53,436 nt of DNA from an uncultured Pseudomonadota bacterium (GTDB taxonomy: Bacteria > Pseudomonadota > Gammaproteobacteria > Enterobacterales > Succinivibrionaceae), in the NCBI GenBank assembly GCA_900315145.1, contig OMYE01000026.1, positions 1 through 53,436 of the forward strand, read 5' to 3'. Positions 25,838 to 29,679 of this stretch are shown in pieces (the first letter of the stretch is position 1; each line of letters opens with the position of its first letter). Made by a program: the position numbers and the translations under genes. The notes below the pieces were generated by a model. It was not told the DNA's origin, did not search any database, and saw only the letters and a program-made list of their open reading frames with translations.

Positions 25838-27847
25838 ATGTACATGACAACCTCAGAGATTCGTAAAGCGTTTCTCGAATATTTCCATTCACATGGTCAT
25901 GAGGTGGTAAGTTCAAGTTCTTTGGTTCCTCATAACGATCCTACACTGTTGTTTACCAATGCCGGTATGAATCAGTTTAAGGACGTTTTTCTGGGTAAAG
26001 AGCTTAGAAGTTATACACGTGCTACTACTGCGCAGAGATGTGTCCGTGCAGGCGGTAAGCATAACGACTTAGACAATGTAGGTTACACTGCTCGTCATCA
26101 TACATTCTTTGAAATGTTAGGTAACTTCAGCTTTGGTGACTATTTCAAAAAAGATGCTATTCATTTTGCCTGGGGCTTCCTGACAGGTGTACTGATGATA
26201 CCTGCGGAAAAACTCACAGTTACTGTTTATCAGACTGATGATGAAGCCTATGATATCTGGAATAAGGAAATCGGTATTCCTGCAGAACGCATTGTCAGAA
26301 TAGGTGACAATAAGGGGGCTCCTTATGCTTCAGATAACTTCTGGCAGATGGGGGATACAGGTCCGTGCGGTCCTTGCACTGAAATATTCTACGACCACGG
26401 TGCCGATATCTGGGGTGGCCCTCCAGGATCAGCTGAAGAAGACGGAGACAGATTCATTGAAGTCTGGAACATTGTATTTATGCAGTACAACCGTACTATC
26501 GACGGAGAGTTCCATAAGCTTCCTCGTCCTTCTGTTGACACCGGTATGGGGCTTGAGCGTATTGCGGCAGTAATGCAGAATGTTCATTCAAATTATGAAA
26601 TTGATTTGTTCAGGGATTTGATTGCCAAGACTGCTGAAGTTCTGTCAGTTTCCGATTTGAGCAATAAATCATTGAGAGTTATAGCCGACCATATCCGTTC
26701 ATGCTCATTCCTGATTGCCGATGGGGTTCTTCCTTCAAATGAAGGCAGAGGATATGTTCTCAGACGTATTATCAGAAGAGCTGTAAGACACGGCAGACTG
26801 TTAGGAGCAACAGAGGTATTTTTCTACAAACTGGTTAAACATCTTGCTGCTCTCATGGGTGAAGCTTATCCTGAACTGGTTGCTCATACCGACCTTATAG
26901 AGAAGACTCTCAGAAAGGAGGAGGAACAGTTTATCAAGACTCTCGACAGAGGTCTGAATCTCCTCAATGAACAGCTCGCTGCACTCGGTGATAACAAAAC
27001 CATTCCTGGAAATGTAGTATTCAAGCTTTATGATACATACGGTTTCCCTGTAGACCTTACAGCTGATGTTGTGAGAGACGCCGGTTATGTCATCGATCAG
27101 GCAGGTTTTGATGAAGAAATGAATAAGCAGAGAGCCAGAGCTAAGGAAGCCAGTGCTTTTGATATTGACTATAACTCTCAGCTTAAGGTTCAGAGTAATA
27201 CTGAATTCCTCGGATATAATTCATTAACTGCTGATACAGTTGTTGAAAGTGTATTCAAGGGTGTGGATGCTGTAGATGCCGTTTCTACCGATGAAGACGG
27301 AATCATTGTTCTTGAAAAGACTCCTTTCTATGCAGAATGCGGTGGTCAGGTAGGGGATACAGGTGTTATCAGATCAGTAGATGACGGTTTTATATTCAAG
27401 GTTACCGATACCAAGAAGGTAGGTAATACCACTATTCATATCGGTAAGGTTGAGCTCGGTTCTTTTGTTCCGGGAATGAAGGTTGTAGCTGAAGTTGACA
27501 GTATGTCCAGAAAACTTACCTGTGCTCATCACAGTGCAACACATCTGTTACAGGCTGCTCTGCGCAAGGTTCTTGGTAATCATGTAAACCAGAAGGGATC
27601 TGCAGTAAGTTCCGAACGTCTGCGTTTTGACTTCTCTCATAATGAGCCTGTAACTCTTGAACAGCTTGCAGAAGTGGAAAAGCTGGTTAACAGTGAAATT
27701 GTTGCCAACCTGTGTGTTGATACAAAGGTAATGGATCTTGAGGAAGCTAAGAAGACCGGGGCCATGGCATTATTCGGTGAAAAATATGACCAGAAGGTAC
27801 GCGTTGTATCCATGGGGGATTTTTCATGTGAATTGTGGAAGCTGTAG
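25838..27847 (+). CDS. alaS: Alanyl-tRNA synthetase, N-terminal part (catalytic and truncated editing domain)
   Basis: Charges tRNA-Ala with alanine. Residues 1-660 match a normal bacterial AlaRS: the class II catalytic core ([40 protein letters not shown]), the tRNA-recognition domain, and an editing domain with the first half of the zinc/editing site, His565 and His569 in HHSATHLL. The frame then reads [10 protein letters not shown] and stops. In normal AlaRS, GDFSTEL is followed by CGGTH, giving the other two zinc ligands, and about 24 more residues before the C-Ala linker. Those bases are missing here, about 88 by comparison with the E. coli protein as I recall it, and the frame shifts. 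Charging may survive, because N-terminal AlaRS fragments are active in E. coli, but editing should be lost. A sequencing or assembly error is possible. The start is supported by AAGG 6 bases upstream. Confidence 0.9.
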
Positions 27848-28383
27848 CAAGCCTTTCTGCTCTTGATTATGTGCAGAAGCTTTGTTCAGAACTGAGAAAC
27901 AGTGCTGACCTTCTGAAGAGTGAAATGTTTACAGTGACAGAAAAGGTTCATCAGAATCTTGAACATAACAGAGAACTGGAACATGAAAATGCTGCTCTTA
28001 AGGAAAAGCTGGCTCTTTCAGCTGTTTCAGGTCTGATGTCTTCGGTTGTAGAAATTAATGGTGTAAAGACTTTAACTGCTACATTTGAAGGCGTAGAGGT
28101 TAAGGAAATGAGAACTACACTTGACGATCTTAAGAATCGTTTGAAGAGTGCGGTTATCGTACTGGCCTCAGTTGTGGGAGACAAGGTATTCTTAATTTCC
28201 GGGGTAACCAAGGATTTAACAGCCAAGGTTAAGGCTGGGGATCTGGTAAATCTTGTTGCCAAGCAGATTGACGGTAAGGGTGGCGGCAGACCTGATATGG
28301 CTCAGGGTGGCGGTACTAACGTGGCAAATCTGCCTAAGGCTATGGAAAGTGTTGCTTTGTGGCTTGAGGAAAGACTTGCATAA
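27835..28383 (+). CDS. alaS: Alanyl-tRNA synthetase, detached C-Ala domain part
   Basis: This 182-residue frame continues AlaRS right after the deletion: [13 protein letters not shown] aligns with the E. coli segment beginning IEAVTGEGAI. A coiled coil (about 20-70) and the complete C-Ala (DHHA1-type) domain follow, with LIAGVTKD-like [16 protein letters not shown] and the glycine motif [15 protein letters not shown]. It overlaps the upstream frame by 13 bases. Its own frame is closed by TGA at 27829, so translation would need to begin at GTG 27835, with GGGGGAT about 14 bases upstream, or at a later internal codon. The remainder shows no further damage, which implies a very recent deletion, continued use as a separate peptide, or an artefact. 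Confidence 0.85.
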
Positions 28384-28418: not shown

Positions 28419-28455
28419 GAAGAGTTTCCGTGAGAATGGGAACTCTTCTTTTTTT
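28419..28455 (+). terminator. Intrinsic terminator of alaS
   Basis: GAAGAGTTTCC pairs with GGGAACTCTTC (one G-T pair) and is followed by seven T. Confidence 0.85.
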
Positions 28456-29386: not shown

Positions 29387-29477
29387 GGTGAGATGACCGA
29401 GAGGCCGAAGGTACTCCCCTGCTAAGGGAGCATACCCCAAAAGGGTATCGAGGGTTCGAATCCCTCTCTCACCGCCA
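29387..29477 (+). tRNA. tRNA-Ser (GCT anticodon)
   Basis: A 91-base class II tRNA. Acceptor GGTGAGA pairs with TCTCACC, with discriminator G and an encoded CCA. The anticodon stem CTCCC/GGGAG holds TGCTAA, i.e. anticodon GCT reading AGC/AGT. It has a long variable arm (ATACCC/GGGTAT) and the TTCGAAT T-loop. It matches E. coli serV in sequence type and position after csrA. Confidence 0.97.
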
Positions 29478-29496
29478 GTTTTGGAATAAAAGTAGC

Positions 29497-29573
29497 GCAC
29501 CCTTAGCTCAGCTGGATAGAGTACTCGGCTACGAACCGAGCGGTCGAAGGTTCGAATCCTTCAGGGTGCGCCA
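29497..29573 (+). tRNA. tRNA-Arg (ACG anticodon), copy 1
   Basis: A 77-base tRNA. Acceptor GCACCCT pairs with AGGGTGC, with discriminator G and CCA encoded. The anticodon arm CTCGG-CTACGAA-CCGAG gives ACG, whose first base should be edited to inosine by TadA to read CGN codons. The two leader bases GC can extend the acceptor stem to 9 bp with G73-C74. It corresponds to E. coli argV/argY. Confidence 0.97.
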
Positions 29574-29602
29574 TTTAACAATTTATGATTTCCTAATTTT
29601 GC

Positions 29603-29679
29603 GCACCCTTAGCTCAGCTGGATAGAGTACTCGGCTACGAACCGAGCGGTCGAAGGTTCGAATCCTTCAGGGTGCGCCA
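29603..29679 (+). tRNA. tRNA-Arg (ACG anticodon), copy 2
   Basis: Identical to the copy at 29497-29573. E. coli has four such copies at this locus; here there are two. A T-run follows the CCA immediately (29683-29689). Confidence 0.97.

Follow-up and report, generated by a model that had tools for sequence, protein, structure and literature searches.

Does an uncultured gammaproteobacterium of the family Succinivibrionaceae (the family of Ruminobacter) live with a split alanyl-tRNA synthetase (AlaRS) that lacks the core of its editing site, or is the break in its alaS gene foreign to most cells of the species? The window analyzed here is a whole contig (OMYE01000026.1; 53,436 bases). The draft genome to which it belongs, presumably metagenome-assembled, comprises 246 contigs with 2,981,355 bases in total and is estimated to be 93.95% complete and 0.53% contaminated. 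The alaS gene in this window lacks 88 bases within the editing domain and is thereby divided into two reading frames. We lean towards the view that the gap is an artefact of sequencing, library preparation or assembly, or else a minor or recent unfixed variant, over a genuine lesion in the majority of the cells. The features concerned are the following.

25838..27847, forward strand: 5' frame of alaS, 669 codons, encoding the aminoacylation part and the beginning of the editing domain and ending in WKL followed by TAG
27530..27544, forward strand: codons 565-569 of the 5' frame, encoding HSATH; this HxxxH half of the editing site is retained (motif located in a congener)
27835..28383, forward strand: 3' frame of alaS, 182 codons from a GTG, encoding the C-Ala part, in the -1 frame relative to the 5' frame
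27837..27838, forward strand: deletion junction, between the two bases of which 88 bases of the congeners L003, L004 and L005 are missing
27845..27847, forward strand: premature TAG of the 5' frame, from the reading of the open reading frames

The preliminary description of this locus, which was made from the sequence alone, proposed that the 5' frame is cut short soon after GDFSCEL by the TAG at 27845-27847, that an out-of-frame gap of about 88 bases splits the gene, and that the missing segment of about 29 residues, by comparison with E. coli, starts with CGGTH. Both the sequence and the open reading frames agree with the first of these claims, and the comparison with the alaS genes of close relatives that the same description had suggested supports the other two. 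In nucleotide alignments with the three congeners (four genomes of the genus were sampled, this one included), the single frame-breaking difference consists of exactly 88 extra congener bases after window position 27837, and the missing congener peptide begins with CGGTHV(N/S). The window gene also carries an in-frame insertion of 3 bases near 27371 relative to all three. Each of the congeners has one alaS, a continuous frame of 879 codons, whereas the window gene, instead of one frame of about 880 codons, consists of frames of 669 and 182 codons that overlap by 13 bases, the 3' frame starting 10 bases before the stop codon. At the protein level, residues 1-665 of the AlaRS of L005 (876 residues) match the 5' frame (86%) and residues 694-875 match the 3' frame (82%); similarly, the two frames cover positions 1-658 and 688-847 of the TIGR00344 alaS model (847 positions). 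The NF002436 model of short AlaRS gives the 5' frame a score of 527.7 against a cut-off of 529 and the intact congener 573.3, and this score is uninformative on the split. The closest AlaRS among 80 loci kept from named genomes, a set from which records very near the window may be excluded, belongs to the uncultured Ruminobacter RUG12170 (77%).

The gap removes Cys666 and His670 of the editing site (the CGGTH motif), with the junction Trp (27836-27838) in place of the cysteine, and leaves the codons of His565 (27530-27532) and His569 (27542-27544) in place, in accord with what had been claimed from the sequence and with the Pfam matches. In particular, all three domains, tRNA-synt_2c, tRNA_SAD and DHHA1, are matched in the intact congener, where tRNA_SAD (PF07973) spans residues 653-696, whereas neither window frame gives a tRNA_SAD match. 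The aminoacylation part is complete, with positions 1-550 of the 552 in the PF01411 (tRNA-synt_2c) profile matched at residues 7-555 of the 5' frame (737 bits), and DHHA1 (PF02272) is found at residues 78-178 of the separate 3' frame, so that C-Ala is not on the same chain. Because the split thus separates C-Ala, the main tRNA-binding module of the E. coli AlaRS (PMC10036535), poor charging may weigh as much as the lost editing. The Cys and His of CGGTH are present in all 111 relative loci that were read residue by residue. We also observe that the AlaRS of a 0.35-Mb genome (L147; G057:C1:210500-214000), which is 40% identical to that of L005, has CCGTH instead of CGGTH, with the Cys and His kept.

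A split of this kind is rare in the family. AlaRS matches were obtained in 52 of the 56 family genomes, and in 49 of these a single match within one open frame covers residues 1-866 or more of the 876. The three others are the present genome, G008, where a run of N separates two matches that share an open frame, and G030, where the contig ends within the match. A mosaic alaS was considered for G008 and rejected, the interruption being the run of N. A frame-split alaS is accordingly seen in 1 of the 52 family genomes with a match, and in 1 of the 4 genomes of the genus. Matches to alaS were found in 44 plasmid records, none of them covering 80% of the query, and none of the titles listed in a literature search on alaS pseudogenes, frameshifts and genome reduction describes a comparable split.

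General frameshift noise in the assembly was rejected as an explanation, given that alaS is the sole frame-split gene among the 50 compared. These are the genes of genome G001 matched at 60% identity or more in the present genome, of which 44 are full length, 3 are partial in a single frame, 2 fall at contig edges and were not counted, and only alaS is frame-split; the comparison covered 333,963 of the 2,981,355 bases, window included, and many of the genes come from the window. In the reverse comparison, 49 of 51 genes are full length; of the other two, one has a flagged stop close to where the alignment starts and one was excluded because of an edge. Among matches above 60% identity, the stops in the three forward cases listed from the window comparison are located in extensions before the likely start, and the others were taken by eye as shadow frames.

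Apart from the gap, the gene is strikingly well preserved, as the preliminary description had claimed for both flanks. Among the 195 alignment columns that are invariant in 109 relatives, the window departs at 9, all inside the gap, and keeps the other 186 (179 on the N-terminal side and 7 on the C-terminal side). The ratio of nonsynonymous to synonymous substitution rates (dN/dS) between the window and the three congeners is 0.071-0.076 for the N-terminal part and 0.060-0.083 for the C-terminal part, compared with 0.041-0.052 between L004 and the other two congeners, with the synonymous rate (dS) near saturation in most comparisons. Relative-rate counts with three outgroups were 9 versus 2, 6 versus 6 and 9 versus 2 for the C-terminal part; the N-terminal part shows fewer changes in the window than in L004 with each of the outgroups (21 versus 30, 24 versus 26 and 19 versus 28). 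An old pseudogene was therefore rejected, no further invariant position being changed and dN/dS being low in both halves. The pristine remainder and the low dN/dS imply that the gap is younger than nearly all of the substitutions or else is absent from most cells, and these substitution patterns suggest that both halves were parts of a single evolving protein until very recently, or still are in most cells.

The origin originally proposed for the gap, a deletion at a short repeat of the TTGTG/GTG type, finds no support in the comparison with relatives. The last missing codon is ATT in the three congeners, followed by GAA or GAG, and encodes Ile in 104 of the 109 relatives and Val in 5; the breakpoints share 0 bases if the lost codon was for Ile, and a 3-base repeat results only with a GTG codon. 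The V of VEAVAS, with which the C-terminal sequence resumes, is the product of the junction itself. A join without shared bases, if the lost codon was indeed for Ile, is unlike ordinary slippage. The 24-mer that spans the junction occurs once in the genome with up to 3 mismatches allowed, which shows that no long repeat gave rise to a misjoin. The segment missing from the window folds, in L005, slightly better than shuffled sequences (z -1.41; 16 of 200 as good), and a deletion promoted by a hairpin was rejected, there being no striking hairpin in the congener segment. A programmed frameshift was rejected as well, with no slippery heptamer detected by reading in GAATTGTGGAAGCTGTAG. The gap could stem from a chimeric molecule where coverage was low, or from a real deletion.

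If the deletion were real, other genes could compensate for it, and the search for a second alaS or a free-standing editing protein of the AlaX type that had been proposed earlier was negative. Neither a second alaS nor a stray fragment of the gene was found in the assembly of 2.98 Mb. It is thus hardly conceivable that the lesion is harmless owing to a second AlaRS gene in the unassembled part of the genome: the incomplete assembly leaves room for such a copy, but no second AlaRS match exists in the 2.98 Mb and each of the three congeners has one alaS. AlaX, sought as a free-standing tRNA_SAD protein, was found neither in this assembly, from which some 6% of the genome may be missing, nor in the three congeners. 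The only tRNA_SAD match in the genome is in threonyl-tRNA synthetase, and the congeners have two such matches each, in frames of 879 and 654 codons. There are also two tRNA_edit matches in the genome, one in a 582-codon frame and the other in a YbaK-type deacylase, and neither protein is known to clear Ser-tRNA-Ala. A gene for D-aminoacyl-tRNA deacylase (DTD) is present in the genome; it shares a contig of 6,476 bases (C64) with thrS, the gene of the tRNA_SAD match. DTD is reported to clear Gly-tRNA-Ala (PMC5409826), so that the earlier expectation that a cell without AlaX would clear neither Ser-tRNA-Ala nor Gly-tRNA-Ala is incomplete: it stands for Ser-tRNA-Ala, which would be the main uncorrected product, but not for Gly-tRNA-Ala.

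These observations bear on the chief alternative to an artefact or unfixed variant, namely that the deletion is genuine in most of the sampled cells. In that case the 669-residue product would retain the aminoacylation part and charge alanine without the editing core and the attached C-Ala, and the cell would limp along, with serine at alanine positions, or have help that has so far escaped notice. We consider this a serious if less probable reading. It is consistent with the clean, unique junction in a long syntenic contig, the lack of any other frame-split gene among the 50 compared, the complete aminoacylation part and the availability of DTD for Gly-tRNA-Ala. In addition, E. coli reportedly tolerates an editing-defective AlaRS at the cost of a growth defect (PMC6918089, PMC5409826), and a mini-AlaRS without the editing domain and C-Ala functions in yeast (PMC10036535). 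It is difficult to reconcile with the lack of any other decay in the gene, of a detectable AlaX and of such a split in the other family genomes with a match, and with the finding that the E. coli fragment N461 could not replace the yeast AlaRS (PMC10036535). The boldest version, in which a 3-Mb gammaproteobacterium depends permanently on one alaS with a broken editing core, charges alanine with an AlaRS that is truncated or in two pieces, has no AlaX and DTD as the sole safeguard, and so mistranslates alanine as serine throughout its proteome, appears improbable.

The overlap of the two frames raises another possibility, a functional two-piece AlaRS in which the C-Ala half would be translated from the GTG at 27835 by reinitiation at the overlapping stop and would associate with the 5' half, as in Nanoarchaeum equitans. 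Judging from the 13-base overlap and the position of the start 10 bases before the stop, reinitiation may be possible, and split AlaRS is known in nature (PMC10036535, PMC3491384). Furthermore, a GGGGGA upstream of the 3' frame is predicted to pair with the anti-Shine-Dalgarno sequence at -8.4 kcal/mol (compared with -3.2 for alaS and -4.7 for csrA), a strength reached by 3% of 844 sampled start-like triplets. However, this GGGGGA is about 15 bases from the GTG, within coding sequence common to the relatives, and no purine-rich site was detected by reading at the usual distance; moreover, the split destroys the editing core and is followed by no signs of adaptation. We regard this arrangement as very unlikely.

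AlaRS is essential, and this, together with the single copy found, the pristine remainder of the gene, the lack of another split alaS in the family, the draft state of the assembly and a join without shared bases, is why we favor an artefact or an unfixed variant. An otherwise healthy alaS with one out-of-frame gap of 88 bases in the editing domain would then not be the settled state of the species; the gap would have arisen as an error in the library or during assembly, or would represent a minor or very recent variant picked up by the draft assembly. We infer that most cells lack the gap, and they would carry a continuous alaS of about 880 codons as in the relatives. The alaS deletion strain of the E. 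coli collection carries a duplicate alaS (PMC5409826), and N461 of E. coli, which lacks the editing domain and C-Ala, binds tRNA-Ala poorly and does not rescue a yeast AlaRS knockout (PMC10036535).

Several points weigh on the other side. An assembler normally needs reads across a join such as this one with its unique 24-mer, the 53-kb contig has conserved gene order on both sides with no other frame-split gene among the 50 compared, and the intact gene was not found on any contig of the assembly. Loss of editing alone is not lethal, since E. coli survives with a full-length AlaRS that cannot edit (PMC5409826), and the result with N461 is not directly transferable to the 669-residue product, which is much longer. 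Finally, the uneven relative rates of the C-terminal part with two of the three outgroups and the dN/dS values towards the window, which somewhat exceed those among the congeners, are weak hints of relaxation that come from small numbers and near-saturated dS.

The gene order that flanks alaS on both sides is conserved in the three congeners over the parts compared. Directly past the 3' frame, there is a terminator-like hairpin of 13 pairs (28419-28448) followed by a run of T. Further downstream, after a csrA-like frame, a tRNA-Ser(GCT) and two tRNA-Arg(ACG) genes are located at 29387-29679, all three of which are also matched by Rfam; a comparable arrangement exists in E. coli.

Compared with known systems, the window gene resembles bacterial AlaRS of the TIGR00344 family in the model coverage by its two frames and in sharing the gene neighbourhood of the congeners, and differs from it in the missing 88 bases, the broken frame and the lack of a tRNA_SAD match in either frame. 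The mini-AlaRS of Tupanvirus is likewise an AlaRS chain without a working editing domain or C-Ala, but this 461-residue enzyme stops short of the editing domain and is a tight binder of the acceptor stem, whereas in the window an ordinary enzyme is interrupted within that domain; unlike E. coli N461, the viral enzyme rescued a yeast AlaRS knockout (PMC10036535). In N. equitans, AlaRS is also encoded in two open reading frames (PMC10036535, PMC3491384) and works as two subunits, the second of which enhances the first (PMC10036535), in contrast to the window split, which removes the editing core. Natural loss of synthetase editing is known from the degenerate editing domains of Mycoplasma ThrRS, PheRS and LeuRS, which are other synthetases, whereas here a frame-breaking gap affects the AlaRS of a 3-Mb genome (PMC7373986). 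A further parallel is the C666A variant of E. coli AlaRS, in which the same cysteine is lost and which shows a growth defect and serine misincorporation, and which thus predicts serine at alanine codons; unlike the window alaS, it is full length, has C-Ala attached and is laboratory-made (PMC6918089).

For now, the case mainly reminds us that, when an essential single-copy gene in a draft genome shows one clean out-of-frame gap, the reads need to be checked first. If, however, reads proved that a stable population has no alaS other than this allele, the gap would offer a natural experiment on how much of AlaRS editing and of the attachment of C-Ala a bacterium with a genome of normal size can lose, and also on whether DTD suffices as a safeguard.
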